Positions 8,338-63,530 of a DNA stretch of 64,000 bases are shown one piece after another. The notes under the pieces were generated by a model, which did no database searches, was not told the origin of the DNA, and saw only the letters and a program-made list of their open reading frames with translations. The DNA comes from Vibrio alfacsensis (lineage in GTDB: Bacteria; Pseudomonadota; Gammaproteobacteria; Enterobacterales; Vibrionaceae). The translations under genes were made by a program, and so were the position numbers. The number at the start of each line of letters is the position of its first letter. Positions within the stretch are counted from its first letter, which is position 1. Location: assembly GCF_003544875.1 (NCBI RefSeq), contig NZ_CP032093.1, positions 1,302,001 to 1,366,000 on the forward strand, in the 5' to 3' direction.

Positions 8338-9661
<1,324 letters not shown>

Positions 9662-47525: not shown

Positions 47526-47595
47526 AGCAGCAAAAGGTTCACAATTCATGCGAACCTTTGTAATAGTTTCGTTGATCATAAAGGTCGTTCTGTAA

Positions 47596-48597
47596 CTATT
47601 TATTTTTTGCTTGATTAGGCCACATTTCGTTACTTAAATAGCCCTTTTCAATACTGTATTTGTACTGGCTTAATAGCTTACGTAGTTCCGATAAAGGAAC
47701 ACGTTCCGATACGTTGCTAGAACCTGCAGTAAAGGTTTGTATAAATGCACCTTTCAAAGTGCCACTTAGATGACTCCACCAGTTGTACCAAGGGCCAACT
47801 GGGACGGCACCGTTACTCCCAGGGCGGATTGATTGCCCCCAAGGGAAATGACCAATACGAATATTGTGAGAAATGCTCTCTCCACCAATATGTTCATAAG
47901 GGTGGCGTCCACTCATTAAAAGCATGAAACAGATAATCGTTAAGGAAAACGTATCGCTGTAGACATTCCTGACTACAGACGACAAATTTTGCCCTTGGTG
48001 TTCGGGCGGAATCATGCTGTCTGTTCCTACTGGGCAGGGAAAATGTTGCCCTTGAATGCTTACTTGATAACTATCACAATCAATAAACGAAACTAATTTG
48101 GTTTGTGGTTCGACCAAAAAATTATCAAGATTTATATCTCCCATATAAATGCCATGAGAATGCAATTGTTCCGCAGTTTTTAAAAGGCTTTGAAGAATTT
48201 CAATTACATCCGTCCGGTTTATCTCTGGGAAATACTTTCTCACTAGTTTTGGCACTTTAAATACACTCAATTTAATGCCGTCAGCCGCTTTCATCGCGTA
48301 GCCTTGCCAAATCCGCTGCTCATCAAAGACCGCTAATTGAGGCCAAGCGACCGGAAGTTTGCTCAATGATGGCGTGCTTTTGTAAAGCTTAATCATTGCA
48401 TTAATCTTATCCATACGCTCTTTATCCCCAAGGTAATCAGAATGGTAGATCTTGGTTAAAATTTTGCAATTGATGCTTAATGGATAAACGCAGCCTTCAC
48501 CTCCGCGAGCTAATTCTTTACCGAGCTGACGTGACTCGCCATTAAAATCAAAAACGGTTTGTAATACTGTCGAGTTGTCATTGCTTAAGTTAAACAT
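47596..48597 (-). CDS. YegI-like protein kinase domain protein
   Basis: The product is 333 residues with a bacterial Ser/Thr-kinase-like domain: glycine loop GKELARGGEGCVYPL, the ATP lysine in KILTKIYH, catalytic loop GIYMGDINLDNFLV (GD in place of HRD) and FIDCDSYQV in place of DFG. It is the last gene of a kinase-phosphatase-vWA trio with the same composition as E. coli yegI-pphC(yegK)-yegL. It lacks the extra C-terminal region of YegI. GGAGG precedes the ATG, and the start overlaps the phosphatase end by 8 bp. Within a CRISPR island such a trio is unexpected. The substrate is unknown. Confidence 0.75.
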   Translation of the reverse strand: MFNLSNDNSTVLQTVFDFNGESRQLGKELARGGEGCVYPLSINCKILTKIYHSDYLGDKERMDKINAMIKLYKSTPSLSKLPVAWPQLAVFDEQRIWQGYAMKAADGIKLSVFKVPKLVRKYFPEINRTDVIEILQSLLKTAEQLHSHGIYMGDINLDNFLVEPQTKLVSFIDCDSYQVSIQGQHFPCPVGTDSMIPPEHQGQNLSSVVRNVYSDTFSLTIICFMLLMSGRHPYEHIGGESISHNIRIGHFPWGQSIRPGSNGAVPVGPWYNWWSHLSGTLKGAFIQTFTAGSSNVSERVPLSELRKLLSQYKYSIEKGYLSNEMWPNQAKNK

Positions 48598-49465
48598 AGC
48601 GTGCCTCCTCGATAAATGGGGGAGTGTGTTGTTTGGCTTCCTGGTAACCTAGCAAGGCGATAGATTTGTCATCCCCTGTAGAGCGGCACCAGATTTTCGG
48701 GTCACTTAAAAAATAGTGAAGATTCTTATTTGCAGATTTGTCATCTTCCAACCAACTCAATAAACTGTTGCAAGCTTTATTTGCCGGCGTGTGAGAACGG
48801 TTGTCGACTAATTTCTCTGCACTACCGTCACTTAGTAACATCACAGCATCGAATTGATTTTCTAACCAGCCTGACTGGACTTGATTAAGAGAGAGCGAGG
48901 CATCAACAAAGCAAGTTTGGTTAGCAAACTCTCCCTTAGCTGGTGGCGTCAACACTGTCCACTCATGTGAACGTTTGTTACGAGTAAGTATAAAGCCATC
49001 GCCAACTTGAAGCCAAAGTGAGCGATAACGGCCCACGACGGCCATTAACAACGTTGAGCGAAACTCTTTCGCTTGTTGCTGATAGGTGGTAGCAAGATCT
49101 TTAATTATTCCTTTACTGTGGCGGGCAAGTAGGTTTCCGAACAGCGCTTGATCGCTTTTGTTAGGTGTATCTTGAGTGTCTAACATGCTCATTAATAGTG
49201 GTTCTAGTGTCGAACATAGACGCAGTAACCCGGCGGTCAGCCCTTGTGAACCTAGGTGGGATAACTTTGCTGAGCCTGCACCATCACACAAAATTGCTAT
49301 TGGGCGTAAGTTTGCTTGGCTACAACAGGCATCTTGGCAAGGCAAGCTACTTTCAATATGACGATATCCGACAACAGATTGAGCCGCATAAGTCCAATTT
49401 GATGCAGAAGTCGAGAACGGTACTTGCGGATCCGAATATGGAAGTAAAGGAACGTAATGACTCAC
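48590..49465 (-). CDS. PphC-like PP2C protein phosphatase
   Basis: The product is about 291 residues of the PP2C family. Metal-binding acidic residues are visible in ILCDGAGSAKLSHLGSQG, LLSDGSAEKLVD and TGDDKSIALLGY. It should dephosphorylate Ser/Thr in proteins and most likely counters the kinase gene that overlaps its 3' end. The frame is open to 49573 from a TTG without ribosome site. The GTG at 49465, eight bases after GGAG, is the better start and avoids overlap with the upstream vWA gene. Confidence 0.78.
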   Translation of the reverse strand: MSHYVPLLPYSDPQVPFSTSASNWTYAAQSVVGYRHIESSLPCQDACCSQANLRPIAILCDGAGSAKLSHLGSQGLTAGLLRLCSTLEPLLMSMLDTQDTPNKSDQALFGNLLARHSKGIIKDLATTYQQQAKEFRSTLLMAVVGRYRSLWLQVGDGFILTRNKRSHEWTVLTPPAKGEFANQTCFVDASLSLNQVQSGWLENQFDAVMLLSDGSAEKLVDNRSHTPANKACNSLLSWLEDDKSANKNLHYFLSDPKIWCRSTGDDKSIALLGYQEAKQHTPPFIEEARYV

Positions 49466-49551
49466 AGTGCAGTCTCCAAAACTAGTTGCAGAGCGCAATA
49501 ACAAATCATATAGAGGCTTGTTATTGCGTTTGTTATTGCTGTCGCAAAGAG

Positions 49552-50226
49552 TTAAACGCTGATTGCGTCCCAACCAGAAGTCGACGGCAGAGCTACTTTA
49601 TCGCCGGGGATAGATTGGCTCACACGTTGCATGCTTGCTGATAACCATCGAAAAAAGGCCCGAAATTCCAATCCTTTCAATTTCTTGGGCTCAAGAACGC
49701 TAAACTCTTGTAGTATCTGCATGTCAGCCGCATCTCCAATACCAACGCAAAGTACGACCATTTTTTGGTTCTGTGCGAGTTGCTTTAGGCGTTGGGCCGC
49801 AGCTTTCCAGTCATCATTTGGCTCACCGTCTGTCATTAGTACTAACCATGGTTGGTAGTAACTTACGCCAGACTGCTTGTATTCATGCTTGCGTGCTTCA
49901 AGCTTATCAATGGCTAGGTTCACGGCCTCACCCATTGGGGTCATACCGTAGGCATCAATTTTTGGTAGTACTTCAATGTCATCAACGGTCATCATTGGTT
50001 GAACTAATTCAACGTTGTGGCCAAAGCTAATCACACCCGCTTCAACAGAGCAGCTTGCCATTTCATCCGCTTGAACCTCCTCAACAAATTGTGAAAGACC
50101 AAGATTCAGTTCTTGATTTGGTGCTCCGGACATACTAGAGGAAGCATCCATAACAAGCATTACAGGGCAACGAGGGGCAGGGTTTGAGATAAGCGAATCA
50201 TCAAAAATTTGGGGGTAGTAACTCAT
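49552..50226 (-). CDS. YegL-like von Willebrand factor A domain protein
   Basis: The product is 224 residues, essentially one vWA domain with a complete MIDAS metal site: DASSSMSGAPN (DxSxS), the Thr in YGMTPMGEA and the Asp in LMTDGEPNDDW. It resembles E. coli YegL in size and motifs. As first gene of the kinase/phosphatase trio it likely acts as the adaptor or scaffold. Its promoter contains the island palindrome (50299-50308), 28 bp before a CATAAT -10 element. Confidence 0.8.
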   Translation of the reverse strand: MSYYPQIFDDSLISNPAPRCPVMLVMDASSSMSGAPNQELNLGLSQFVEEVQADEMASCSVEAGVISFGHNVELVQPMMTVDDIEVLPKIDAYGMTPMGEAVNLAIDKLEARKHEYKQSGVSYYQPWLVLMTDGEPNDDWKAAAQRLKQLAQNQKMVVLCVGIGDAADMQILQEFSVLEPKKLKGLEFRAFFRWLSASMQRVSQSIPGDKVALPSTSGWDAISV

Positions 50227-50298
50227 GGGCAGCGTCCTTAACGTTTCGTAACTTAACGAGATGGATTATGCCTAAGTAAGAATTTTAAGCGTAAACTA

Positions 50299-50308
50299 AC
50301 AAATTTGT
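50299..50308 (-). promoter_or_regulatory. Island operator palindrome, YegL operon
   Basis: ACAAATTTGT on the minus strand is followed after 28 bp by CATAAT and then the vWA gene. It also borders the leader of CRISPR array 1. Confidence 0.7.
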
Positions 50309-50522
50309 GTGGAACATTAGAGCAATACCTGAGTGATTTGGTCGAGATTGCGGATTAATAAAAAATGTTTTAATAATTAAAGGTAATTTTCAATATTTTC
50401 AGATGGTTACGGGAAAAATAGAGCGTTGAGTTTTAAATGAAATTTATAAGTTGATCAATGTCACATATTTTACCGCAAACAAGCGCTGTAGAGCTTGATT
50501 TTAAAGGGTTACAGCGGGTAGA
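50309..50522 (+). promoter_or_regulatory. Leader of CRISPR array 1
   Basis: About 214 bp between the operator and the first repeat. It shares several blocks with the array 2 leader, including GAGATTGCGGAT and GGCTTGATTTTAAAGGG-like sequence (GCTTGATTTTAAAGGGTTAC here) and AGCGGGTAGAGTATTCGAC at the leader-repeat junction. It should contain the promoter for the pre-crRNA, read on the plus strand. Confidence 0.75.
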
Positions 50523-51257
50523 GTATTCGACATGCCCAGATTAGATGGGATTAAGACAACATATGTTGATGTTGAATATGTTGTTGTAAATAGTATTCGA
50601 CATGCCCAGATTAGATGGGATTAAGACTGTAACTATCCAAGCCACCCAAGCGAAAAATGCTACGGTGTATTCGACATGCCCAGATTAGATGGGATTAAGA
50701 CTTTCCCTAATAATGGAGTTTAATTCAGTTACATGTTTGTATTCGACATGCCCAGATTAGATGGGATTAAGACAAACAAGTCGTCTTCATCCACATATTC
50801 AGGAACTGTATTCGACATGCCCAGATTAGATGGGATTAAGACCTGGATCATTGGATGTTCAAGCGTCATGTTTTGAGTATTCGACATGCCCAGATTAGAT
50901 GGGATTAAGACTCTCAACTTCGAAACGAAATGCTTTGTTTGGGTCCGTATTCGACATGCCCAGATTAGATGGGATTAAGACTTATTCTTGAGCATATTGA
51001 AATCAATTGACTTTTCGTGTATTCGACATGCCCAGATTAGATGGGATTAAGACTCCAAGTAGGATAGCATCGTTTGTATGGTAAAGGGTATTCGACATGC
51101 CCAGATTAGATGGGATTAAGACATCGGGTTCATGCCGGCTTGAATAGATTTCATGCCGTATTCAACATGCCCAGATTAGATGGGATTAAGACGAATAGGT
51201 TTGTCCATAGGCGTTCATCGTTCTTGCGTATTCGACATGCCCAGATTAGATGGGATT
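50523..51257 (+). CRISPR. CRISPR array 1, 11 repeats and 10 spacers
   Basis: The 35-bp repeat begins GTATTCGACATGCCCAG and ends GGGATTAAGAC. Repeats start at 50523, 50593, 50667, 50739, 50808, 50877, 50947, 51019, 51088, 51158 and 51228. Spacers are 34-39 bp and all different. The leader is on the left. The repeat at 51158 has a G to A change (TTCAACATG) and the last is cut after 30 bp, as expected for the leader-distal end. Read rightward, crRNA 5' handles would end in TTAAGAC. The array is convergent with the cas2 gene that begins 5 bp beyond its end. Confidence 0.98.
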
Positions 51258-51261
51258 TTCT

Positions 51262-51534
51262 TTAAATCACAAACCAATCGTCATGCCAGTGAATTTGTGA
51301 TTTACCATCGGTCATTCGTGTCGCAATGTCTTTACCACAGAGCGGGTAGTAGTGGATACGATCTTGCTTTTTGATAACCTGCTGTAAACGTTTTTTAAGC
51401 TGACTGAATCTTTCTGGACGCAACCTAACTTCAAACACACTGTACTGAATTCGCCAACCATGCTCGTTGAGAATTTTTACCACTCGTCGTCTGCGTTTGT
51501 TGCTACATACATCAAAACACACTACTGCAAACAT
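51262..51534 (-). CDS. cas2: CRISPR-associated Cas2, copy A
   Basis: The product is 90 residues of the Cas2 ferredoxin-like fold: VVCFDVCSNKRRRRVVKILN, then RIQYSVFEVRL and HYYPLCGKD. Cas2 dimers bridge Cas1 dimers in the spacer-integration complex. It is the last gene of the adaptation operon. The ATG at 51534 is six bases after AAGGA; a GTG in frame one codon earlier is less likely. A second cas2 of different sequence lies directly upstream. Confidence 0.93.
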   Translation of the reverse strand: MFAVVCFDVCSNKRRRRVVKILNEHGWRIQYSVFEVRLRPERFSQLKKRLQQVIKKQDRIHYYPLCGKDIATRMTDGKSQIHWHDDWFVI

Positions 51535-51554
51535 CACTCATCCTTAGTTCTGTA

Positions 51555-51836
51555 TTACACCAGTTCATAACTTTTATATGTGTGAATTTGACCGCTTCCT
51601 TGAGCAAAACGTTTAGCTTTGCAATGTTTACAAAGATGAAAGTAATGCACTGCATCTGTGATTGGGTCGATTTTTTGTCGCAGCGAATAGCGTAGTCGGT
51701 GGAGTTGCTGTAGGGTAAGCATGCACTCGAATACGCTGTACTGAACTCTGACACCATGATTTAAGAGTGCTTTTTCTACGTATCGACGAGTTTTATTATC
51801 ACTGATGTCATAACAAACAAGAAAAATGTGGCGCAT
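51555..51836 (-). CDS. cas2: CRISPR-associated Cas2, copy B
   Basis: The product is 93 residues with the Cas2 pattern LVCYDISDNKTRRYVEKALL, RVQYSVFECML and VHYFHLCKHC. AAGGGG precedes the ATG. It lies 13 bp after the RT-Cas1 gene and 20 bp before the other cas2. The two copies share only the family core, so they are old paralogs, perhaps forming a heterodimer. The CKHC pair near the C-terminus is unusual. Confidence 0.92.
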   Translation of the reverse strand: MRHIFLVCYDISDNKTRRYVEKALLNHGVRVQYSVFECMLTLQQLHRLRYSLRQKIDPITDAVHYFHLCKHCKAKRFAQGSGQIHTYKSYELV

Positions 51837-51849
51837 AGTTGCCCCTTAA

Positions 51850-53930
51850 TTATCGTAGTCGCAGTGGGGTGAGGCTGCCATCTTTTGTGAGCAACAATTG
51901 CCTTAGTTCTAATACTTGTAAGTCGATAAAGCGGCGTAAATCGGTTTTTATTTTGAGATCTGGATGGGTAAATCGTTGTTGCATACGCTGTTCGAAGGCT
52001 TGCACAAAAATTTTTTTGCCACGTTCAAGTAAGATGCAACCTTGATCAGTTTGAACAAAATCACTGGCTTTTAACGTTTGGCGAAGAATCAATTTCAATA
52101 CAACTTCATCGACCACAAGTGGTCTCCATGGCTCCATTAAGTCAAGCACAAGGCTTGGAAAACCATTCGCTTGCTTATGCAAATACCCAAATAGTGGCGA
52201 TATACCTCGCACTTCTAATATCACTTGAATGTTATTGAACAAAAGTTGATAACCAAAGCTAAGTAACACGTTGATTGGATCTTTTGGAGGACGACGATTC
52301 CGACCAGAAAAGTGCCAAGTATGTTGTGACCACGTTTTCCATTGCTGAAAATAAAATCTCGCCCCAATACCTTCGTAACCGCGAAGTTGATCGATGTGGT
52401 TACATTCAGCAACGCTGTTGCGCGCGTTAATCAATCCATTTATGCACGTTGGATCCAACGGTAATCCTTGCTTGTTCCATCGCTTAAGCAGCTGCAATTG
52501 ATTGTTTAGCTTCTGGCTAATGAAAAAGCGTACGTGTTTGAGGCATCTTGCACTATCAGACTGCTCAAACACTTGAGCTTGCAACAACTCAGGATTGTTT
52601 TGTGTCTCAAAACCGAATGCCCCGCACCGTTGCCCTGCTTGGCTGAGCAGAATGATTGGTATGGCGTGAGTTAGACAATGTTTGATGACAGCAATGGTAG
52701 GGTGCACATTACCAAATAACCAGATGGTATCGATGGTTGCTGCGGGAAAACACTGTAACTCTTGTCCTTTATGGCTTACGCGGATTTGTCCATTGCGCAT
52801 CGACATTACGGCGCCTTGTTTTTGTACATACAAGGTTCGAAGTTTGGCAATTTGGCTAATTGATGCACTTGTTTTATCTAATGTCTGTTGCTGAGGTTCC
52901 AGCTCATCCTCGATGCAATCGTTTAGATGCACCAAATGGTTAGGCACAGAATCCAACCAGTAGTTTTTGGGCAGAGTAATCGTGAGGTCAATCTCATTAT
53001 CGATGTCTGGAGGGGAGGTGACGTTAGGTTTGAGATTGTGCCAGCAACGATCAGTATGAAGAGACTCCGGCAACGTAAGCTGATCGATAAAATGAACACC
53101 AAGAAAGTGGAATCCTAAGTCAAAATTGGTGACCTTGGTTTTCTCTTGATTTAACTCTAAATGGCTGCGTTCCAGGATTAGGTTGACCTCTTCTAACGCC
53201 AATCTTGCGACTTGCTCGGTTTTACAATGGACAACAAAATCATCCGCGTAACGTACGATTTCATATCCTGAATCAAGCATGGCAATATCTAACTCGTTAA
53301 GAAATAAATTTGCCAATAAAGGGGAAAGTGGTGATCCTTGTGGTATGCCCACACCAACACTTGATCCAAAACTTAACTCGTTATCCAGGTTTTGTTGTTG
53401 TGCTGTAATCGCTTGATTGACCAAATTTACATAAGGTGAGTTAGCCAATGCGGTTGAGACTTTTTGTTGCAATATATTGTGGTTAATATTATCAAAAATG
53501 CGGTTATATCGGCATCCACTACCCAGTGATAGCCAGAGTCTCGTAAAAACTCGACCCGTTGAATGGCATCCATATAACTTCGATGTGGACGGTAACCATA
53601 GCTGCTCCGAGTAAACTGACTTTCAAAAATGGGAGAGATCTTTTGTGCCAGCCACGTATGAACCACTCTATCCCGAACGCAAGGAATCGCTAGATATCGC
53701 TCTCCACCATTTTTCTTGGGTACATTGACCCTCAGATAAGGTTTTGGTTGCCATGAATTGTGGTTAAGGTCATTTAGAAGCTGAGACAAATAGCGCTCTT
53801 TAGCCAGTTCAAACTGCTCAATGGAAATGCCATCAGTTCCAGCAATACCATTGTTTTCAGCAACTCGATGAAAGGCGCAATGTAACTCTTGTAACGTCAC
53901 TAGCTCCGTTACTGCAGTGGCATTGTTCAT
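51850..53930 (-). pseudogene. cas1: Reverse transcriptase-Cas1 fusion, one frameshift
   Basis: Full length would be about 693 residues. N-terminal group II intron-like reverse transcriptase: GIAGTDGISIEQF, VVDADITAFFDNIN (catalytic Asp, after frame repair), GIPQGSPLSPLLANLFLNEL and the active-site RYADDFVVHCK. C-terminal Cas1 from about residue 355: catalytic Glu in RGYEGIGARFYF, His in LFGYLHKQANGFPS and Asp in VLDLMEPWRPLVVD. No Cas6 domain precedes the RT. Adding one base to the A5 tract at 53494-53498 gives TAFFDNINHN and joins the frames. All catalytic residues survive, so the gene is probably functional and the break artefactual. The start ATG at 53930 overlaps the upstream stop (ATGA). 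Confidence 0.92.
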
Positions 53931-54952
53931 AATACGCATGACTCCATATCCATAATCATCACATTATCTGACTCATTTTGCGGACTGGGTTGTTCCATTT
54001 GCTGGTCAATCCAGAGAGAAAACTGCTCAAAACTAAGAATGTTCGCTCCATGCAGCTCAGAAAACTCTTTCATTAGCTGTGGCTCATGCTCAGGAGAGAC
54101 GATCAAGCAGTGTTTAATCGGTAATTGCAATTGATTGGCCAAAGAGATCGTTTCAGTGGCTGTTTTCTGCCAAGGGGAGGTGCTTGCCTCAACCACAAAG
54201 ATCTGTTCACCAAGTGAAACAATAAAATCAATTTCTCTTTCTTGACCTTTCGAAGTGCGTATTACAGGGTTAGAGACCCATTCTAGAGTAGAGATAGTAC
54301 GCTTCATTTCAATGAGTTGTTGCTCGATGGCGAGCTCAAACCATTTACCTTTTAGGTAGGATTGAGTTGCTGGTAACCCGTTTGACTGTACTTGCAAAAA
54401 ACAGTGCGGACTACGTTTGTACTGATAATGTTGAAGAAAGCCAATGTCATTCATTTGATTAGCAACACTCGTCGTTTCTGTAATCACTTCAACGGCTTTA
54501 TTCCGCAAGTTGAGATTCAATGTACGGCTGCCAGTCGCCCATTGATTGAGTAGGCTCATGAGGCGTTCCACGTCGTTGTAATGGCGTGCAATATGTAGAC
54601 TAAGTTGACGAGAGCGTTCCGTATTGGCTGCTGGACGATTGAATCTTACGAAACCAAGATGATACTTACGGAACCAATTGCACACAACTTCTGGCAATGC
54701 GGAGATATTGGTTACGTTTGACTTAGGTGAAAGTTGTTGAACGGAAGTTGACGGATGTATGAGTGGTGAAGTTTGAGATGCGAGATAATCCATTTTCTCA
54801 ATGATTTCAGCGGGCTTAACATGCTCTAATATTTGTGGACTATTGCTTTGATTAACAATACTCTGCAAACACTGTGTCACTTGATTAAGTGCGATGGCGA
54901 GTTGATTGATAGCTTGCGTTAATTCTTGCGTCGATTGTTCCATGACAGTCAC
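53927..54952 (-). CDS. Unknown protein with Card1-like nuclease domain, first gene of the RT-Cas1 operon
   Basis: The product is 341 residues: an N-terminal coiled coil (residues 5-40), a linker, a helical middle domain (90-170) and a C-terminal PD-(D/E)xK-like domain. That domain follows the pattern of the island's own CARF nuclease: GKWFE (202-206), then REID (239-242), then VVEAST (253-258). In the CARF nuclease the last motif is IEAKT; here serine replaces the catalytic lysine. No CARF domain is present. Translation is coupled to RT-Cas1 by an ATGA overlap, implying equal amounts and a role in spacer acquisition. It may be a DNA- or RNA-binding, catalytically dead factor; its function is unknown. 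Confidence 0.7.
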   Translation of the reverse strand: MTVMEQSTQELTQAINQLAIALNQVTQCLQSIVNQSNSPQILEHVKPAEIIEKMDYLASQTSPLIHPSTSVQQLSPKSNVTNISALPEVVCNWFRKYHLGFVRFNRPAANTERSRQLSLHIARHYNDVERLMSLLNQWATGSRTLNLNLRNKAVEVITETTSVANQMNDIGFLQHYQYKRSPHCFLQVQSNGLPATQSYLKGKWFELAIEQQLIEMKRTISTLEWVSNPVIRTSKGQEREIDFIVSLGEQIFVVEASTSPWQKTATETISLANQLQLPIKHCLIVSPEHEPQLMKEFSELHGANILSFEQFSLWIDQQMEQPSPQNESDNVMIMDMESCVL

Positions 54953-55013
54953 CTTCTCGGTTGTTTGGCTACAGACTCAATGTACTCCTAAAGTGCTATG
55001 AAAGAGTTGGTTG

Positions 55014-55023
55014 ACAAATTTGT
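55014..55023 (-). promoter_or_regulatory. Island operator palindrome, RT-Cas1 operon
   Basis: ACAAATTTGTCAACC on the minus strand is identical over 15 bp to the site before cas10. A TACATT element lies 29 bp downstream of the palindrome (GTACAT at 28). The leader of array 2 starts on the other side. Confidence 0.7.
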
Positions 55024-55245
55024 ACAGTGATCATGGGAATGAAATACCTGACTGAATTACTTGAGATTGCGGATGAATAAGTAATTGCATTCTTAGTTCA
55101 CTTAGTAATTAATAGTAAAATCAGATGATTAAGGCGAAATTATTCATCTAAAACGTATGGTTATTTGTCGAGAGTGATGTATATCACAATTTTCTCCGCA
55201 AAGTGCCTCTGGAAGGCTTGATTTTAAAGGGCTACAGCGGGTAGA
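55024..55245 (+). promoter_or_regulatory. Leader of CRISPR array 2
   Basis: About 222 bp, recognisably duplicated from the array 1 leader: AATACCTGA, GAGATTGCGGAT, GGCTTGATTTTAAAGGG and AGCGGGTAGAGTATTCGAC occur in the same order and spacing. Confidence 0.75.
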
Positions 55246-55560
55246 GTATTCGACGTGCCCAGATTAGATGGGATTAAGACTTTTAAAGCAAGTGTAACGA
55301 ATGTCATAAAACTCATGTATTCGACGTGCCCAGATTAGATGGGATTAAGACCATGAAACTTCAATGTATCATCTAATAGCATTTGGTATTCGACGTGCCC
55401 AGATTAGATGGGATTAAGACGATTTTAGTTTCACCGAAACCTTTAGTTACTTCGATGTATTCGACGTGCCCAGATTAGATGGGATTAAGACCGAGGAAGT
55501 TGAATGCCACCTTTGGATTCCATTGTTGTATTGAATTTGCCCAGATTAGATGGGATTAAC
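55246..55560 (+). CRISPR. CRISPR array 2, 5 repeats and 4 spacers
   Basis: Repeats start at 55246, 55317, 55386, 55457 and 55528; spacers are 34-36 bp. The repeat differs from array 1 by one base (CGACGTGCC instead of CGACATGCC) in every intact copy. The last copy is degenerate (TTGAATTTGCC, ending GGGATTAAC), marking the leader-distal end. The leader is on the left. Confidence 0.97.
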
Positions 55561-55561
55561 A

Positions 55562-55593
55562 AAAAACTCGTTCAGTGACGACGAGCTTTTTCA
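55562..55593. terminator. Terminator at the end of array 2, bidirectional
   Basis: AAAACTCGT / ACGAGCTTTTT with a 7-nt loop. An A run on the left and T run on the right let it stop both the array transcript and the opposing gene. Confidence 0.7.
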
Positions 55594-55596
55594 TGT

Positions 55597-56106
55597 TCAA
55601 GTAAAAGTCATCATAGGAGAGCCGAGTAATATTTTGGTTTTTACCTTATCCATTATTTTTCGCTTATAGTGGTACTGGCTAGTTGTACTTGGCTCAATAA
55701 ACTTCCCCAATAGTTTGTTTGCGATGCTAATGTGAATCATATATTTATGTCCATCACAATGCTTCATTACAAACCGTTCAGCCCCTTCAGAAAGCTCCAT
55801 CCATGAGTGATTTAGCGCACTTTTAATCAATATGGCTAATGCGGATTTTGCTTGCGGTATATATTGATGGTGGATGCCCATTGCCACCAACTTCCACCCC
55901 TGTTTGGCTTTATAGACTGTCACTGCGAGTACGATGCCGTCTTTAACCAATATTTGCCACTGATCACTTTCTTCTATTAGTGCCTTTGGTGAGGTGTAGT
56001 GCAATCCGCCAGACACAGTTTGGTAGCTGTCGCTTAAGATTTTCCAGACTTGCGTTTGGTAACGGGTCATATTTTCTTGAGTGTTTAGGGTAAGAATGTG
56101 TGTCAT
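55597..56106 (-). CDS. Unknown protein (169 aa), possibly GNAT-like
   Basis: The product is 169 residues. The pattern QTVSGGLHYTSPKALI, WQILVKDGIVLAVTVYK, GWKLVAMGIH suggests an N-acetyltransferase-like beta-sheet core, but the acetyl-CoA motif is not convincing. The frame is open 60 codons further, but that would run through the promoter. The ATG at 56106, after AGAGG, lies about 27 bases after the start point predicted from the TATAGT -10 element. It carries the island operator, so it is co-regulated with the cas genes. Confidence 0.55.
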   Translation of the reverse strand: MTHILTLNTQENMTRYQTQVWKILSDSYQTVSGGLHYTSPKALIEESDQWQILVKDGIVLAVTVYKAKQGWKLVAMGIHHQYIPQAKSALAILIKSALNHSWMELSEGAERFVMKHCDGHKYMIHISIANKLLGKFIEPSTTSQYHYKRKIMDKVKTKILLGSPMMTFT

Positions 56107-56167
56107 GGCGTGCCTCTCTATATTGAGGAGGTCACTATAGAGTGTGAGGTGTTTTTTATATGCGATG

Positions 56168-56177
56168 ACAAATTTGT
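56168..56177. promoter_or_regulatory. Island operator palindrome, 55.6 kb and 56.25 kb genes
   Basis: ACAAATTTGT is followed on the minus strand, after exactly 28 bp, by TATAGT (56134-56139). On the plus strand TAAGAT lies 29 bp away, so the site may drive both divergent genes. Confidence 0.7.
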
Positions 56178-56253
56178 GTTTGTCCTTCGCGTTCGCTTGT
56201 TCTCGATAAGATGCACCCATCAAATAAAACGGTGCCAAATTGAGGAGTAAAAA

Positions 56254-57207
56254 ATGTGCAAGCAATCTAGCCTGAGCAAATATCAAAAACAGATCGTAAA
56301 AGAGTTAACAGGTTTAATGGGTGTGAATATCCCATTTACCTACGAAAAAGCTCAGAATAATCACTTAAAAGTATTGATTGATGGTATCGAAAAGCCGTTG
56401 TATACCGGCTCAACACCGTCTGATCGTAACTCTGCCAAGAACTTTATCGCCCAAGTAAAACGAGCAATAAAAGATATGGCTCTAGACGTCAACGAAGAGT
56501 TAGAAGCGGCAAAACGGGCTATCCCGTTTGAGAACGTTCAGAATAAGGAAGTGGACAAAATGGTTGAATGCTGCATTAAATCACTACGAACTCGGAAAGA
56601 ATCCCTTAAGAAAAAAGAAACCGATTACCTGTTAGAGCAAGGTGACTTAGATTTGCTTCATCCTTACCGTAGTGAAGTGGTTAAACTGACATTAGAGCAT
56701 GCAATGAAGCAGCGTAAGCAGTTGGGTTATTTTCGTCCAAAACAGAAAAAAGAATTGGAGAAGAGTGTTAGAAAGCATCTTGATTTTATTATGCCTAATA
56801 AGGCGGATTATTCAGACTTATTAGCCTGCCAACATACAGAACGTGATTCCCAGACAGTGCAACAGTCTTACCTTGAAGCCAGTAACGTGGTTATGCTAGA
56901 TACGACAAATCAGGGCTCCTCACCAGTAGTTCAACGGCAAAGCGCATCACATGAAGAGGCGGTAACGAAGCTTGAATTAACGGACCAAGCACAGCATGGC
57001 AATATAGCACTACAGTTAATGAATATTGCTAAAGGCAAACGTGTTGATATGTTGCGTGATCTTTCACACGACCACATAATCCAACTTCTTGCGGACATCG
57101 AACAAGCGAAAGAGCTGAACATCCGTTGCGCAATTGCGGATATCAAACAACTGGTTAAAGTAAATGACGTGCCACTTGAACGACTGTTTGATGCGCTTAA
57201 TCGTTAA
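56254..57207 (+). CDS. Unknown CRISPR-island protein (317 aa)
   Basis: The product is 317 residues, mostly alpha-helical and basic. The N-terminal 75 residues (NNHLKVLIDGIEKPLYTGST, followed by RNSAKNFIAQVKRAI) look like a small alpha/beta, double-strand-RNA-binding or HicA-like module. A lysine-rich middle (RTRKESLKKKETDYL, RKQLGYFRPKQKKELEKS) and a helical C-terminus follow. GGAG precedes the ATG. It is followed 43 bp later by csx16 on the same strand. I cannot assign a function; an RNA-binding role is a guess from composition. Confidence 0.6.
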   Translation: MCKQSSLSKYQKQIVKELTGLMGVNIPFTYEKAQNNHLKVLIDGIEKPLYTGSTPSDRNSAKNFIAQVKRAIKDMALDVNEELEAAKRAIPFENVQNKEVDKMVECCIKSLRTRKESLKKKETDYLLEQGDLDLLHPYRSEVVKLTLEHAMKQRKQLGYFRPKQKKELEKSVRKHLDFIMPNKADYSDLLACQHTERDSQTVQQSYLEASNVVMLDTTNQGSSPVVQRQSASHEEAVTKLELTDQAQHGNIALQLMNIAKGKRVDMLRDLSHDHIIQLLADIEQAKELNIRCAIADIKQLVKVNDVPLERLFDALNR

Positions 57208-57250
57208 CCGTAACGCCACCAATAAAGAAGATACTTGAGGCTGACAGACA

Positions 57251-57547
57251 TTGAAAACCTATTTTGTGACTCGTCACCCAGCAACGAAAGCTTGGGCCAA
57301 AGATCGCCAGATGAAGATAGACCATTGGTTAGAGCATATCAGTGATCTTACCTTATTTAATCCAGGCGATGTGGTTTACGGCACTTTACCTATTCAAATG
57401 GCTGCCCAACTGTGTAAACAAGGTGTTCGCTATGGGCACTTTACTTTAATTGTCCCGCCTCATCTGCGTGGGCTAGAGTTTTCCGCTGAGCAGTTGCAAT
57501 CTTGTCAGCCCAAGATAGAGTTTTTTGAAGTGATGAAAGTAGGTTGA
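57251..57547 (+). CDS. csx16: CRISPR-associated protein Csx16 (VVA1548 family)
   Basis: The product is 98 residues with the family pattern FVTRHPATKAWAKDRQ, GDVVYGTLPIQMAAQLC and GVRYGHFTLIVP. The family was named after the V. vulnificus protein VVA1548 and is found only with type III CRISPR systems. Recent work proposes that Csx16 is a ring nuclease that degrades cyclic oligoadenylate, switching off CARF effectors. Its neighbour, the Card1-like nuclease, is such an effector. The start is a TTG; no strong ribosome site is visible. Confidence 0.87.
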   Translation: MKTYFVTRHPATKAWAKDRQMKIDHWLEHISDLTLFNPGDVVYGTLPIQMAAQLCKQGVRYGHFTLIVPPHLRGLEFSAEQLQSCQPKIEFFEVMKVG

Positions 57548-57644
57548 GTATAAGAGACTACGTGCACTTCAAGAGTGAAAATCGCCATTTCACTTGGAAC
57601 GGTATTTAAAACATCTGTCTTCGTTTACGCCAGCAACACTGAGT

Positions 57645-57672
57645 AAAATTAAAGCCTCCTTAGATGGAGGCA
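57645..57672 (-). terminator. Terminator of the Card1-like gene
   Basis: The minus-strand stem GCCTCC / GGAGGC around ATCTAA is followed by TTTAATTTTA. Confidence 0.75.
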
Positions 57673-57701
57673 TTGAAACCAAACGTCGTTGTAGGCATAA
57701 A

Positions 57702-58925
57702 TTAACCGATTTTTCGACTGCATTGCAGTTTCCAGTCTTTGAATCTCTCAACGAGCTGTTCATAAGTTTCGACACGCAGTGCCGATATGTGTCGCATTGA
57801 TTCAACACGTTGTTGTACTGCATCAGGAAGAGGGTAAATAGTCGCTATTAAAGCTTTAGTGTCACTACCACCATAGTACTGGCTCAAGCTGTCTAGCTTT
57901 GACATTGCTTCTTGCCCAGCCTTGATCTGATTTTCCCAGTTGGCGGTTTTCGCTTCAATGATCATCATATGATTATTGTGAAGTAACACTACGTCGAGTT
58001 CATTCTTAACGGAAGATTCATTACCATCACGATTAATCAGGTTGCCTGTGACGTTCAGAGCAACTTCTTCCACTTGTGCTTCTTTCGCTGCCAGATAAAT
58101 TAACTCTTCAAACCATCCACCACCGAGGTATCTAGAAACTTCTGGTGAATTAAAAGTAATCGAAGTATCTGTGTATTGGATTAAGTCTGCATACTTGAGA
58201 ATATTAAATAATTCCTCAACAGTACCTTGTGGTCTCATTAATAATGAAACGACTGGTTGGAACTGAGATGCGTGGTTGAAATTCGATTCTTGAGCTAAAT
58301 GGTTAACTAAACTTACTAACTTTGGGTAGTCGGAGGCAAGTTTTAAAATGGATTTACTGATCCCTGCTCGATATGTTACATCATCGTCACAACTCATATC
58401 CGTTTTTTGGTAGAGTTTAAACATATTGAGGTAGAGGTAGTCATTAATCGTCATCACTGAGCGAGTATCGACATTCGTGAGCTTATCTGAATCCGACAAG
58501 AAAATGATCTGATTGCTATTAGAGGCCACGTAAATTGCAAGACAGTTGTCTTCAGGTTTATCGAATTGTCGAACAAATGCAAATGACATGGGTTTAGTAC
58601 CACAAGTTGCATTCAAGATGATTTGTTGTCCTGGGTGTAAAGCTTGGATGTCATCAAATAACTCTTTGGCTTTGTGTCGTAACGAATAGTAGTCGTTAGC
58701 GTCTGGACAATAGAATTCTTTTACGTCTTCAATGCCATTATTGTAATAAAACTGCTTTAAGTGTGCAGATTTACTATCAAACTCACTGCCAGCAATCACG
58801 ATATAGACTTTTTGAACAGACTCTTTCATCGCAAGAATCGGGATGATATTAGGAATCATCTGAGCAGATAGAAGATTAATATGAATGGTCACTGTTATTT
58901 CACGCAATAGGTTTTTGATTCTCAT
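57702..58925 (-). CDS. Card1/Can2-like CARF nuclease
   Basis: The product is 407 residues: an N-terminal CARF domain with the ligand motif LNATCGTKPM (about residues 105-113), a helical linker, and a DUF1887-type PD-(D/E)xK nuclease domain with WFEEL (271-275), NELDVV (309-313) and IIEAKTANW (322-330). All catalytic positions are present. Family members are activated by cyclic tetra-adenylate made by Cas10 and cut ssDNA or RNA, causing dormancy. The start is uncertain: an ATG at 58925 or a GTG at 58892, the latter matching the family N-terminus (TIHINLLSAQMIPNI). The nearest upstream palindrome is ACACATT-GTG-AATGTGT, not the island operator. Confidence 0.9.
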   Translation of the reverse strand: MRIKNLLREITVTIHINLLSAQMIPNIIPILAMKESVQKVYIVIAGSEFDSKSAHLKQFYYNNGIEDVKEFYCPDANDYYSLRHKAKELFDDIQALHPGQQIILNATCGTKPMSFAFVRQFDKPEDNCLAIYVASNSNQIIFLSDSDKLTNVDTRSVMTINDYLYLNMFKLYQKTDMSCDDDVTYRAGISKSILKLASDYPKLVSLVNHLAQESNFNHASQFQPVVSLLMRPQGTVEELFNILKYADLIQYTDTSITFNSPEVSRYLGGGWFEELIYLAAKEAQVEEVALNVTGNLINRDGNESSVKNELDVVLLHNNHMMIIEAKTANWENQIKAGQEAMSKLDSLSQYYGGSDTKALIATIYPLPDAVQQRVESMRHISALRVETYEQLVERFKDWKLQCSRKIG

Positions 58926-59285
58926 ATCATACTGAAATTGCGTGAAAATAAGTTGATATAGAACACATTGTGAATGTGTGGTGTCTGATGAAAATCGGAG
59001 ATATTTTCCGCTTGAAATCCTCCTTTTTCAAGTGCGAAAGCGCGTTAGATTTTAATTAATCATCAATAAGCGTTTCGATTGATAAAAGTACGGCTTTGGC
59101 GAGACTCAATTGAGTTAAGGATCAAAAAATAGTGTTGCTATGGTTTAGAGTAAACTTGGATTGAGCGGTATATGGATGAGGCCAAATGTGCAGTAAGTTT
59201 CTTTAATGTTTTACTTACTACTCGACTGCAGGAATACCTCAATGCTCACAGGAATGTGAGCGTTGAGGTGTTATTTGAGCGATAT
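58926..59285. other. Intergenic region with two inverted repeats
   Basis: The 360-bp gap holds the promoter of the Card1-like gene (TATGAT next to the ATG) and ACACATT-GTG-AATGTGT at about 58963-58979. At 59235-59268 there is a long stem-loop, ACCTCAATGCTCACA / TGTGAGCGTTGAGGT with a GGAA loop. No T run follows the stem on either strand. No credible gene was seen. Confidence 0.5.
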
Positions 59286-59606
59286 TTAAAGCGCTTCCCA
59301 TTTCTCACGAGCTTGTGTTTTATGCTCTTCAGTTATGCTAGTCCCTGCCGCAGTCGCAGCGGCAGAGAGAGCCGCTAAATCATCGGCATAGCCCGTAACT
59401 GGAATAAAATCAGGAATCATGTCTACTGGCATAATAAGATATGCGAGTGCGCTACCAATGGTTATCTTAATGCTGATGGGAGTTTTTGGATCTGTCATTA
59501 CTAGCCATAACGTAATGGCTAAAATGGCAACCTCGCCACCCATCTTTTTGAATCCATGAGTAATTTTTTCCCAGAAGTCTGAAGTGCTTGGTTCGCTATA
59601 CGTCAT
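59286..59606 (-). CDS. DUF1232 / YkvA-family membrane protein
   Basis: The product is 106 residues. The hallmark YLIMPVDMIPDFIPVTGYADD of DUF1232 (shown as LIMPVDMIPDFIPVTGYADD) lies between two hydrophobic segments (EVAILAITLWLVMT and LAALSAAATAAG). Function unknown; YkvA proteins are small inner-membrane proteins. It has the island operator 29 bp before its TATACT element, so it appears to belong to the CRISPR regulon; a membrane effector or accessory role is possible. Confidence 0.82.
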   Translation of the reverse strand: MTYSEPSTSDFWEKITHGFKKMGGEVAILAITLWLVMTDPKTPISIKITIGSALAYLIMPVDMIPDFIPVTGYADDLAALSAAATAAGTSITEEHKTQAREKWEAL

Positions 59607-59709
59607 CTTGAGTATTCCATCTTTGGTTTAAGCCAATAGCGCATTTTGAATAATGCGCCGCTGTTGATGGAGCCAGTATAGGGAAAACGAAGAAGTTCTA
59701 ACCCAAGCC

Positions 59710-59719
59710 ACAAATTTGT
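59710..59719 (-). promoter_or_regulatory. Island operator palindrome, YkvA gene
   Basis: The longest copy: CCACAAATTTGTGG is a 14-bp palindrome. TATACT (59675-59680) follows 29 bp downstream on the minus strand. Confidence 0.7.
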
Positions 59720-59750
59720 GGTTCATTTTGCATATAGCTAGAGAGTATCC

Positions 59751-61466
59751 TCATGAGGTGAGGAGAGATTGAATATAAACAGGCAATGGCACAGTCACAG
59801 GTTCACTTTTTATTGACAGCAGTTCAAAAGGAGCTTGGGTTCTTAAAAATAATAGACCAGTTTGCTTATTGGCGCTGATGGAGAAAGACTCGTTTTTTGT
59901 CGCGTAATATTCAATTTCCCAATCTAAAGTGTGGGATTGTTCAAATCCCTCTTTTAGCATAGCGTCAAGATAGCACTGACGATCGTATACTTTAATGCCC
60001 TCATGTAAAAATTCGCTTATGTGCAGACCCTGTGTATCCGCATCTATACGCTGTTTTACTTCCAATGAATAAGCGTGCTCTTCGTGGGTGTTGGTGGCGA
60101 GTTTACATATTTCATATCGCGGCTGTTCTGGTTTACTAAAATATTGTTCATTGAATGTACGAATTCTTGTCAATCTGCCTTTGAGCAAACGGCTAATGCT
60201 TTGTTTGTCTGAACTGTTTATGACATAGAAGTAGGCTTGCTCTCTTTTTGTTGAATAGGATTCTCTGATTAAGATTGGGCTATTGTCTTGATAGTGCTTT
60301 GCCATTATCTCGATATAGTCATCACCTTTTTCCACGCATTCAGCAAGGTTGTTGTCGCTTAGAGCATAGTTATCTTGAGGATTTAGGAAGCAGGGGAAAA
60401 ACTTCATCTCAGCGGTAAAGGTTACCCCACGGTTAAGCAAGCAAGTGTTACACCCTCGCGCACATGGACAATGCTGTAATTCGACTTCGAGAGAAGTGTC
60501 TTGATACTGATAGACATCTTTTTTTTGGTTTTGCCACACTAGAGTGAGCTCGTCTTTAAGTGTCTGTTTAACCGAATCCAATGTATAAAAATATGGGTAG
60601 AAATTACGTAGTTTTTCAGTGATCAATAGCTCGAGAAATTTCACGGATGTTGCGTTGTATTCAGCGGCGTATTTGAGAATCGCCGAGAGAGACTGGTGAG
60701 AGGTATTAATGTCTTTTAGTAGTACAACATTCAATTTAAAAGGAATGTTTGCTTCATTAAGCATGACCATTTTTTGCTTGATGGTATCGAGCAAGGTGTC
60801 AGAACCAAAGCCAGGTTTTTTCTTGCGATGAACGATCTCTAAGTATTCATCATCGAGAAAACTGTGCAGTGACAGGTTTAGCCTCACTTTACCTGGGTAG
60901 GAGCTCAATCGTTCAAGCATACGAGGATTCAAGCGTTCTCCGTTGGTCACGATAGTAACTTCAGGTAAGTAGTTGATCGTTTCCATGTAGCTCATACAAG
61001 CATCGACTGTACGCCAATTCAGCAGTGGCTCTCCTCCTGTGAATGTAAAGTCATCATAATTTAGTTCAGCAAGTTGTTTAATTACATCAAAGAACGTCTC
61101 GTTGCTGGATGTCTCACGTTTTACCTCCATTTCCATTCCTTCCTCATGGCAGAAAAAACAGTGATAGTTGCACTTTTCTGTCACAGAAAAACGAACGGAC
61201 TTGCGATAGGTGACGGCTTTTTGATAGTTCTGGTCATGGGTTAGATGGTAATTAAGCTTCTTAAGCCTTACCTGTTGCTTAGTTGCTAATGGGGTATTCG
61301 TGATAACTATGGTTTTGATGCCAGATTCGGCAAGGGTTAACTCAATTTTGACCAGAGGGCTGAGAATATCGCCATCACAAGCGTGCAGCGCCAGTTTTGC
61401 GGTAGATTGATCTGTGTGTATGGAGTAATCAAGCCCCATAAATGGAGAAGAGATATTAAAGCTCAT
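59751..61466 (-). CDS. Radical SAM protein, divergent from cas10
   Basis: The product is 571 residues. An N-terminal region of about 90 residues precedes a MoaA/SPASM-like radical SAM core with CNYHCFFC (C99, C103, C106), FTFTGGEPLLNW and VTIVTNGERLNP. A second cysteine cluster (HCPCARGCNTCLLNRG, then FFPCFLNP) could hold an auxiliary Fe-S cluster. The last about 230 residues match nothing I know. The frame is open to 61517, but the ATG at 61466 has AGAGGA just before it. It shares an intergenic region with cas10, and the operator between them may act both ways. Function unknown; a nucleotide- or peptide-modifying enzyme is possible. Confidence 0.82.
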   Translation of the reverse strand: MSFNISSPFMGLDYSIHTDQSTAKLALHACDGDILSPLVKIELTLAESGIKTIVITNTPLATKQQVRLKKLNYHLTHDQNYQKAVTYRKSVRFSVTEKCNYHCFFCHEEGMEMEVKRETSSNETFFDVIKQLAELNYDDFTFTGGEPLLNWRTVDACMSYMETINYLPEVTIVTNGERLNPRMLERLSSYPGKVRLNLSLHSFLDDEYLEIVHRKKKPGFGSDTLLDTIKQKMVMLNEANIPFKLNVVLLKDINTSHQSLSAILKYAAEYNATSVKFLELLITEKLRNFYPYFYTLDSVKQTLKDELTLVWQNQKKDVYQYQDTSLEVELQHCPCARGCNTCLLNRGVTFTAEMKFFPCFLNPQDNYALSDNNLAECVEKGDDYIEIMAKHYQDNSPILIRESYSTKREQAYFYVINSSDKQSISRLLKGRLTRIRTFNEQYFSKPEQPRYEICKLATNTHEEHAYSLEVKQRIDADTQGLHISEFLHEGIKVYDRQCYLDAMLKEGFEQSHTLDWEIEYYATKNESFSISANKQTGLLFLRTQAPFELLSIKSEPVTVPLPVYIQSLLTS

Positions 61467-61580
61467 TCTTTCCTCTGGAAATAAATAGTTTGAGAGATAG
61501 GTCCGATAAAATATCACGAATGTAGCATATGTAATGAATAACTCGCATATACATTAATACGGTTCTTCTGTGAGCTATAT

Positions 61581-61590
61581 ACAAATTTGT
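61581..61590. promoter_or_regulatory. Island operator palindrome, cas10 (and radical SAM gene)
   Basis: ACAAATTTGTCAACC, then exactly 28 bp after the palindrome TATACT on the plus strand, leading into cas10. On the minus strand a weaker TATATG lies 29 bp away, toward the radical SAM gene. Confidence 0.72.
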
Positions 61591-61754
61591 CAACCTGAGG
61601 TCGTGTTAGTTTCGACTGTATACTGCGTTTTGTTTATTTGTGCGTGGCGCAAAATTGTCAAATTATTTTATTTTCCGTTAAGACAAAAATAATTAAATGT
61701 ATTTTATACCATCGTATTAAGCTGTCGCTATCAAGGAAAGTGCTAGGAAAAATA

Positions 61755-63530
61755 ATGATATACGTCTATTTGTTTGAAGCGAAGTCCATCCAAAAATTCT
61801 TATTTAACTCAGGTAAACTTAAGGATGTGATTTCTGCAAGTGAGCGCCTTGACCGGCTTATTGATACCTCCAAAAATAGTATTTTAGCGCAAGTATTACA
61901 CAGCGCCCGACTGGAGTCTGATCTTTTTGATGCGAATATGGCAAATCAACCAGGTTTGATTCGCTTTTTACGTTGTAAGGGTGGCGCTTTTTATGCCTAT
62001 TGTGAACAGCCCGAACCATTACAAAAATTGCGTTCACTTTGGACATTAACTGTTTCACAATTATTCCCATCATTAACCGTTACTGATGCGCTAGAACAAG
62101 CTGAAACCTTAATTCAAGCTATGGATAAAGGTCATAAGGCGTTAGCAGCAAGCAGAAATGCCCCTCAACTTTCTTTCCCTATTGCGCCAGCAATTGCAGA
62201 ACGGTATAGCAGGACAGGTAATGCATCGGTGCCACTTGGCGATCTCGCTAAGCGTGCAACCCATGCGCAAGAATCGCAAGATGACTCACTTGATTTTGAA
62301 ACAGAAAAGCACCGTCAAGCCTACCAATCTTTTGACTTAAGGGATGCGGCTGCACTACAAGACAGATTTACACCAGAATCGCATATTGGCGAGATTTATT
62401 ACCCAATTGATTTCGAGAAAGAATTTGATTTTGATGGCTCAAAGGAAAGCTTAATCAAATCAAAACGTGAAGCAATCAAAGATATGGCACTTATCCATAT
62501 TGACGGTAATGGCTTAGGTTTGTTGTTAATGGCATTGAAAACAGAGCTTTCAGCGGATGATGTTGATAACTATCGAAATGGGTTTAGAACGTTCTCAGAA
62601 GCGCTTAATGTAGCGACTGAAAAAGCAGCAAAACAGTCGACTCAAGAATTATTAGAAACGATTAAGCCAGAAACGCGAGATAACAAAGGGCGCTTTACTT
62701 TGCCTATGCGCCCTGTAGTACTTGGCGGCGATGATGTGACGCTTTTCTGTCGTGCAGATTTAGCCCTGCAATATAGCCGCACTTTCTGTAAACATTTCAA
62801 GCTTGAATCCGAACAAGCACTGAAGCCGTTATTTGAGCACTTCTTACCGAAAAGTACCGATTTGTTACCTTATATTACTGCAAGTGGTGGTGTGTTGTTT
62901 CATAAAGCAAGCCATCCATTTATGCAATCTCATCACTTAGTTGAAGCGCTGTGCGATCAAGCAAAAACGTTGACGAAAAGCATCTACGGTACAGGCAAAG
63001 TCGGCCCTGCTGCGCTTGCGATGTATCGTGTTTCAAATGCCACTCAGTTGAGTTTTGGGGAAATTACCGAAACGTCTTCGGTACACCATCGTGTTGAAAT
63101 GGGTATGCAGTCCTATTTTGTCGAGGAAGAAGCGGAAGAGCAAACTCATAAACGGAATTTTGGTTTATTAGGTAAGCTATGTGCGCTCTCAATGGAAAAA
63201 GATGCACCAGTATCTATTGCGAAATGGCGACAAATGGCCACCCACATTGCGCTCGATGATATGGAAGAAGCAAAGCGTATTTACCATCGCTGCATTGAGC
63301 AATGTAAAAATGAGCAAGCCAAAGCACAATTAAGTGAATTGCTTAAACGTTTTGTGCCTGAAGAAAGCACTCAAAAAAGTACTGCGCCATGGTGTTGGAC
63401 TGTTGAAAAAGAAAATCAATACGGAGAGCAAGAATCAGCACAGCAGACATTCATTAATGATCTGTTGATTTTTGCGCATTACCAGCCAGCAAAAACGGTT
63501 AACTTGCCGGATTGCAGGGAGAATATCTAA
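61755..63530 (+). CDS. cas10: Type III CRISPR Cas10, GGDD active site, no HD domain
   Basis: The product is about 591 residues, small for Cas10. It begins directly with a ferredoxin-like region (YVYLFEAKSIQKFLFNSGKL, then DVISASERLD); no HD nuclease domain or HD motif is seen. Palm domains are marked by LIHIDGNGLGLL (250-253) and VVLGGDDVTLF (GGDD 324-327), so cyclic oligoadenylate synthesis should be active. The frame is open to 61638, but the ATG at 61755 follows GGAAAA and gives the family N-terminus. Its stop overlaps the next gene (TAATG). It supplies the second messenger for the Card1-like nuclease. Confidence 0.92.
   Translation: MIYVYLFEAKSIQKFLFNSGKLKDVISASERLDRLIDTSKNSILAQVLHSARLESDLFDANMANQPGLIRFLRCKGGAFYAYCEQPEPLQKLRSLWTLTVSQLFPSLTVTDALEQAETLIQAMDKGHKALAASRNAPQLSFPIAPAIAERYSRTGNASVPLGDLAKRATHAQESQDDSLDFETEKHRQAYQSFDLRDAAALQDRFTPESHIGEIYYPIDFEKEFDFDGSKESLIKSKREAIKDMALIHIDGNGLGLLLMALKTELSADDVDNYRNGFRTFSEALNVATEKAAKQSTQELLETIKPETRDNKGRFTLPMRPVVLGGDDVTLFCRADLALQYSRTFCKHFKLESEQALKPLFEHFLPKSTDLLPYITASGGVLFHKASHPFMQSHHLVEALCDQAKTLTKSIYGTGKVGPAALAMYRVSNATQLSFGEITETSSVHHRVEMGMQSYFVEEEAEEQTHKRNFGLLGKLCALSMEKDAPVSIAKWRQMATHIALDDMEEAKRIYHRCIEQCKNEQAKAQLSELLKRFVPEESTQKSTAPWCWTVEKENQYGEQESAQQTFINDLLIFAHYQPAKTVNLPDCRENI

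Follow-up and report, generated by a model that had tools for sequence, protein, structure and literature searches.

An RCAANNTTGY palindrome at the promoters of a Vibrio alfacsensis type III CRISPR island and a candidate NE0113-family CARF-winged-helix regulator

We have analysed a 64-kb window of the Vibrio alfacsensis genome (C1:1302001-1366000) whose right part holds a type III CRISPR island with an RT-Cas1 adaptation module. The palindrome ACAAATTTGT stands before the operons of this island, each time 28 or 29 nt from a -10-like hexamer, and palindromes of the wider form RCAANNTTGY occur before genes of the NE0113 family in many bacteria. We consider it likely that the NE0113 protein of the island, which carries a CARF domain and a predicted winged helix, binds this operator family, of which ACAAATTTGT would be the local form, and activates seven promoters in response to cyclic oligoadenylate.

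In the window there are six copies of ACAAATTTGT, while 0.30 are expected from 100 dinucleotide shuffles (maximum 2). Five lie in the island and one at 12788, just where a sequence-only reading of the window had placed them. Across the whole genome of 4,910,231 bases the palindrome is not over-represented, with 17 exact copies vs 19 for a reversed-pattern control word, and versions with one mismatch are not enriched genome-wide either (291 vs 339 for the control). The distribution is nevertheless far from even, as that reading had predicted: seven of the 17 copies are packed into the 22.5 kb of the CRISPR island (C1:1352299-1374821), all of them upstream of genes (lambda 0.046 with the other 10 copies as background, Poisson P(>=7) ~8e-14). 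Outside the island, 9 of the 10 copies are inside open reading frames (ORFs) of at least 198 aa, and the tenth (C2:1044867) is in a gap with a doubtful 78-aa ORF and has TAGCAT at 28.

The distances to the -10-like elements agree with the earlier claims at every island site in the window. The first operator (50299..50308, minus strand) is upstream of a VWA/PP2C/kinase operon (50226-47596) and also lies some 215 bp ahead of CRISPR array 1, with CATAAT at 50265..50270 on the minus strand, 28 nt away. The second (55014..55023, minus) precedes the adaptation operon (54952-51262, minus), which encodes a 341-aa protein without Pfam match, an RT-Cas1 split over two frames and two Cas2, and has TACATT at 54979..54984 (minus, 29 nt). 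The third (56168..56177) lies between the gene of a 169-aa protein (56106-55597, minus) and the orf317-csx16 pair (56254-57547, plus), with -10-like elements on both sides: TATAGT at 56134..56139 (minus, 28 nt) and, toward orf317-csx16, TAAGAT at 56207..56212 (plus, 29 nt). The fourth (59710..59719, minus) is upstream of a DUF1232 protein gene (59606-59286) followed by Card1/Can2 (58925-57702), with TATACT at 59675..59680 (minus, 29 nt). The fifth (61581..61590) separates a radical SAM gene (61517-59751, minus) from the operon of cas10, RAMP genes and cas6 (plus, homology from ~61755); it has TATACT at 61619..61624 (plus, 28 nt) toward cas10 and a weaker TATATG at 61546..61551 (minus, 29 nt) toward the radical SAM gene. 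The claim that every copy is intergenic is right for the island, with the proviso that the copy at 56168 is intergenic only if the ORF 55597-56286 starts at ATG 56106 and not at an upstream TTG.

Beyond the right end of the window the island has two further copies, at 70620 and 72812 in window-equivalent numbering. Their -10-like hexamers lie at the expected distance (TATGAT at 28 for the first, TACTAT at 29 for the second), which gives out-of-sample support for the operator geometry. The copy at 72812 precedes two GTPase genes, and that at 70620 starts 82 bp before a CARF gene of the NE0113 family (PF09623). A regulator gene right of the window had been predicted, and a candidate is indeed present there, belonging to the CARF-winged-helix type and not to the WYL or LysR type that had been suggested. 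In a mechanical scan of the island for recurring palindromes that have, at 27-29, a -10 with 4/6 matches or more, ACAAATTTGT was the sole result. If the -10 is taken as -12 to -7, the palindrome covers about -50 to -41.

To compare NE0113 loci, we took the best 80 of 244 named relatives and 30 loci from Vibrionaceae genomes, one of them that of V. alfacsensis. After dropping the latter, L020 (gene at the contig start) and two duplicates, 106 loci were left. A blind count of palindromic 10-mers in the 350 bp upstream of NE0113 found GCAAGCTTGC in 13 loci and any other in at most 2, and the corresponding half-site count gave GCAANNTTGC in 16, ACAANNTTGT in 7 and the next in 5. Since the half-site is shared, ACAAATTTGT and the wider palindrome are alike in RCAA/TTGY and differ in the centre. 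RCAANNTTGY was present in 29 of the 106 loci. Before these exclusions, that is, with the V. alfacsensis genome and duplicated loci included and L020 out, the half-site counts were 16, 9 and 5, and RCAANNTTGY was found in 32 of 109 loci (400 bp). The flanks tend to T[CG] before and [CG]A after the palindrome. For 26 distinct NE0113-promoter sites (28 sites with near-identical ones collapsed, V. alfacsensis locus L099 out), the -10 score has its maximum at offset 28 in the range 0-54, and none of 2000 shuffles scored as high. In 28 new loci sampled across the class, without L183 (already in the earlier set) and L185 (from the V. alfacsensis genome), the same two half-sites lead, each in 4 loci (the next in 3), and RCAANNTTGY is present in 11. 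GCAAGCTTGC also occurs inside the NE0113 coding region, in its C-terminal part (L048:11022, L079:8258, L051:11001), which is probably a codon coincidence.

The operator is not confined to the NE0113 promoter. If this promoter and the gene are set aside, the 80 contig loci contain 26 intergenic RCAA palindromes vs 0-11 (3.2 on average) for 11 permuted half-sites. Several of the RCAA palindromes lie 28 nt before TANNNT (L034, L070, L078, L080, L081, L085, L088). Over 107 distinct gene-directed sites outside V. alfacsensis (110 if duplicates are removed within each set instead of across sets), the best offset is 28 with 2.41 matches, above the second (2.06) and the maximum of 1000 shuffles (2.11), and 63 of the 107 sites have a -10 with 4/6 matches or more at 27-29; the same count for other windows is between 5 and 29. 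No peak at 28 is seen in the 117 directions that do not lead to a gene (1.67). Offset 28 is also the best in V. alfacsensis and in the contig and class sets taken separately, while a TTGACA-like -35 gives no signal at the expected offsets 5-11 over 64 sites. A fixed -10 distance without -35 is the layout of activator-type promoters. Judged from these alignments, the operator is apparently regulon-wide and serves more than one promoter.

For control we compared Cas10 loci: the ten that lack NE0113 (155 kb) contain 2 intergenic palindromes and the sixteen that have it (278 kb) contain 14, in eight loci; the difference (P ~0.016) is in the predicted direction in a small sample. This comparison leaves out L243, L245, L246, L247 and L249, which are stretches without NE0113 from NE0113-positive genomes, and counts L231, first chosen as a negative, as positive after a weak NE0113 match. 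The operator is not specific to RT-Cas1 loci, to which it had been tied, and accompanies NE0113.

Among 329 genomes, probably of the Vibrionaceae, scanned for Cas10 relatives, 10 were positive including V. alfacsensis, and we compared the islands of eight others (G063, with a weak match, was left out). The palindrome recurs among them. The number of exact ACAAATTTGT copies in the island relative to the genome is 4/8 in G194, 3/6 in G286, 2/10 in G233, 1/7 in G070, 1/6 in G089, 1/8 in G042, 0/9 in G133 and 0/8 in G261. Ten of these 12 island copies are outside ORFs; the G042 copy is inside a long ORF, and in G286 one copy lies 15 bp into an ORF. All four G194 copies have a -10 at exactly 28. 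G042 carries ACAAGTTTGT, ACAAACTTGT and GCAAGTTTGC at four promoters including that of cas10, with -10s at 28, and G133 has three copies of ACCAATTGGT with -10-like hexamers at 27-28, a weak case, since two of the three fall within a called ORF or right at its beginning. In G261, which is not among the 43 NE0113-positive genomes, there are seven RCAANNTTGY palindromes in 35 kb, six inside ORFs and the seventh without a downstream gene within 700 bp. The layout proposed for V. alfacsensis, with an operator about 45 bp upstream of putative starts and no good -35, recurs in islands of other Vibrionaceae and also in further bacteria, where the palindrome varies. These comparative data favour a single regulator for the island, as the sequence-only reading had suggested.

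Two side observations come from the same islands. The operator stands before genes of secreted or lipoprotein-like proteins in G194 (L153:3823, 5149) and G286 (L147:1506, 19678), which are candidates for new accessory genes. In addition, proteins of ~415 aa in G194 (L153+L154 20154-21410) and G233 (L151 2927-4174) have a Csx16-like part by BLAST and are perhaps CARF-Csx16 fusions.

The NE0113 protein has an N-terminal CARF domain (PF09623), and its C-terminal domain is modelled as a winged helix of the OmpR/PhoB-type fold. Five full-length homologues gave PF09623 and one weak DUF, nothing else. No HEPN domain was found among 25 of the 29 Pfam families listed for 55 C-terminal domains, and a PDB sequence search with the V. 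alfacsensis protein returned none at E <= 1. NCBIfam names the family ring nuclease Csm6, a name that the predicted domain content does not support. From the predicted CARF fold we infer that NE0113 may bind cyclic oligoadenylate.

The mechanism that we propose is as follows. A dimer of NE0113 would sit symmetrically on the palindrome at about -50 to -41, substitute for the -35 that these promoters lack and bring in sigma-70 polymerase. Such an activator at about -45 would account for the constant distance to the -10, for the lack of a -35 and for the joint control of divergent operons. The seven target promoters would include those of cas10, RT-Cas1/Cas2, Card1, csx16, accessory genes and NE0113 itself, whose upstream operator implies autoregulation. 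The CARF fold together with the presence of cas10 in the regulon suggests control by cyclic oligoadenylate: Cas10 makes cyclic oligoadenylates, to which CARF domains bind, and an infection would therefore increase the transcription of the whole system in a positive feedback, on which csx16 might act as a brake.

Several observations weigh against this proposal. On the protein side, Foldseek matches of the C-terminal domain have weak E-values (0.09 at best), and Pfam finds no firm helix-turn-helix family in the 55 C-terminal domains, with HTH_PafC weakly in one of them (E 0.033). The reading frame of the V. alfacsensis NE0113 gene is broken in the part for the winged helix. Direct repeats are common targets of OmpR/PhoB domains. 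On the DNA side, the motif is absent within 350 bp of 77 of the 106 NE0113 genes. Among genes with an apparent promoter of their own it is found in 23 of 52 loci outside one signature-defined clade and in 0 of 9 inside, and among genes inside operons in 4 of 17 outside it (clade total 0 of 13; the split drops V. alfacsensis L099, 20 loci without usable ORF and 6 duplicates). At motif-less loci the operator may have drifted, or the protein may have another role. Four of the nine NE0113 plasmids found were compared: those of Aeromonas media, Vibrio casei and Allochromatium vinosum are without a usable site, and the A. tepidum plasmid has one weak intergenic site and two GCAAGCTTGC (GATACT and TATCGT at 28) that fail the ORF filter. 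As to spacing, 26 is the best offset when the Vibrionaceae sites are taken together (in G286, six of eight RCAAATTTGY sites have the -10 at 26). In the control loci, TANNNT at exactly 28 occurs at 2 of 14 NE0113-positive and 0 of 2 negative sites and does not separate the groups. Finally, Csa3, the known protein with a CARF-winged-helix architecture, was seen in one study to bind its promoter with no dependence on cA4, according to the available part of PMC8844856. A shorter NE0113 clade of Vibrionaceae and neighbours was also noted (L025, L037, L052, L054, L064, L073, L105, L113, L120, L121); RCAANNTTGY was not found upstream of the gene in these ten loci. A search of a phage collection for NE0113 gave no match.

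Another protein might bind the operator, with NE0113 as just one of the targets, and we regard this as unlikely. The link between NE0113 and the site is so far an association, in which the top palindromes upstream of the gene are of the RCAANNTTGY form, and all seven sites in V. alfacsensis are intact while its NE0113 is broken. Island candidates would be the products of orf317 (56254-57207) and of 55597-56106, neither with a Pfam match. The operator, however, precedes NE0113 genes in different named phyla (L044 Acetothermia and L089 Bryobacteraceae, both metagenome bins), which makes a shared Vibrio host regulator improbable, and we have rejected this candidate. We have also rejected orf317 as the common regulator, as it has one weak BLAST match among the eight relative islands. 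Moreover, NE0113 alone has a predicted transcription-factor DNA-binding domain among the scanned island proteins, part of which were modelled.

It is rather less probable again that NE0113 acts at these sites as a repressor, with cyclic oligoadenylate either relieving repression or being required for a shut-off. Csa3b is reported as a repressor whose DNA binding is strengthened by a cA4 analogue, as far as the available text of PMC8844856 goes. The site at about -45 is, however, clear of the -10; the promoters without a TTGACA-like -35 fit activator dependence better; and a fixed spacing, expected for an activator, would be needless for a repressor.

That chance or the duplication of a promoter cassette made the pattern with no regulator at all is very improbable: the copies at 55014 and 61581 do have 16 identical bases in common (15 had been counted before), and those at 50299 and 55014 a conserved stretch on the far side, but the flanks of most copies diverge beyond the palindrome and the -10, the sites recur in other loci with variant centres and the same spacing across species, and chance is rejected on the window shuffles, the genome counts and the island Poisson probability.

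Other features of the island deserve mention. The gene cas10 (61755..63530, plus) is the first of the interference operon, which extends past the window, with Csx19 and Cas7 III-D-like genes downstream. Downstream of orf317 is csx16 (PF09652; 57251..57547, plus), whose product we take to be a possible ring nuclease that would switch the signal off, and the Card1/Can2-like CARF nuclease gene is at 57702..58925 (minus). Three CRISPR arrays were located (50513-51262, 55244-55577 and L017:9269-9743). Between operator and arrays 1 and 2, 50325-50355 and 55044-55074 have a common stretch (ATACCTGA...GAGATTGCGGAT), possibly a leader element; an Rfam scan of window 44000-64000 gave no match. The VWA, PP2C phosphatase and kinase-like genes (47596-50226) form one operon under an island operator, and we assume that they resemble TerY-P-type phospho-signalling triads. 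The orf317 protein is one of the 53 members of a family that occurs in Vibrio, Shewanella, Photobacterium and elsewhere; neither Pfam nor NCBIfam has a match to it, and the one from PADLOC is weak (HicA-like, E 0.0009). The two GTPase genes under the last operator (L017:9819-11555) have weak LeoA/IIGP-like matches, with homologues in the G089 and G133 islands. Frame breaks affect RT-Cas1 (53427-53472), two RAMP (Cas7-like) genes and NE0113 (L017:1100-2681, 4572-6701, 8700-8982); the relatives of these genes are single open frames, and the breaks are either true decay or read errors.

To our knowledge, little is known about the control of type III CRISPR operons in bacteria. A defined operator, a fixed promoter geometry and a named protein family make regulation directly testable here. 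If the proposal is right, the Cas10 alarm is linked to transcription of the adaptation genes, and a widespread database name, ring nuclease Csm6, should be corrected. RCAANNTTGY-N28-TANNNT also offers a sequence handle for new accessory defence genes, such as those of secreted proteins, DUF1232 proteins and GTPases. Tentatively, and with somewhat less than even confidence, we suggest that many proteobacterial type III loci are regulons inducible by cyclic oligoadenylate under a CARF-OmpR-type NE0113, comprising its own gene, interference and effectors, with Csx16 as a brake; in RT-Cas1 loci the uptake of spacers from RNA would belong to the regulon as well, and memory would then be updated only while infection is sensed.

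The proposed regulator belongs to the NE0113 family (PF09623/TIGR02584; PADLOC CARF5). Makarova et al. 2014 (PMC4012209) described Csa3 and NE0113 as CARF families without effector domains and predicted them to be transcription regulators, so that this role was already known as a prediction; the accessible part of that paper does not contain an operator, targets or promoter layout for NE0113, and the operator family, promoter geometry and putative regulon are proposed here. A literature search over titles and abstract openings, without subscription papers or preprints, found no NE0113 operator or regulon, and a search for TIGR02584 returned nothing.

Csa3, best known from archaeal type I-A systems, is like NE0113 in joining a CARF domain to a C-terminal winged helix. 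It regulates adaptation and cas genes and binds cA4, as stated in the available parts of PMC8844856, which treats the two together, and of PMC9704534, according to which no other non-nuclease CARF effector had been characterised experimentally by 2022; the accessible text of PMC10013973 treats Csa3 without the word CARF. Unlike Csa3, NE0113 is bacterial, occurs with type III systems, has a C-terminal domain that is longer and matches OmpR/PhoB-type domains, and accompanies an RCAANNTTGY operator 28 nt from a sigma-70-like -10. OmpR/PhoB-type domains (BaeR, PhoB, CadC, ToxR) represent the predicted fold of this domain, whereas in NE0113 it is fused to CARF instead of a receiver or membrane domain, and the site is palindromic. 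The CalpL/CalpT/CalpS system, in which cyclic oligoadenylate triggers the release of a sigma factor, likewise links the signal from Cas10 to a response in transcription (PMC11229360, whose available part leaves regulators for later study). While that system uses a SAVED-Lon protease and a sigma factor, we propose here one sensor that would bind DNA directly.

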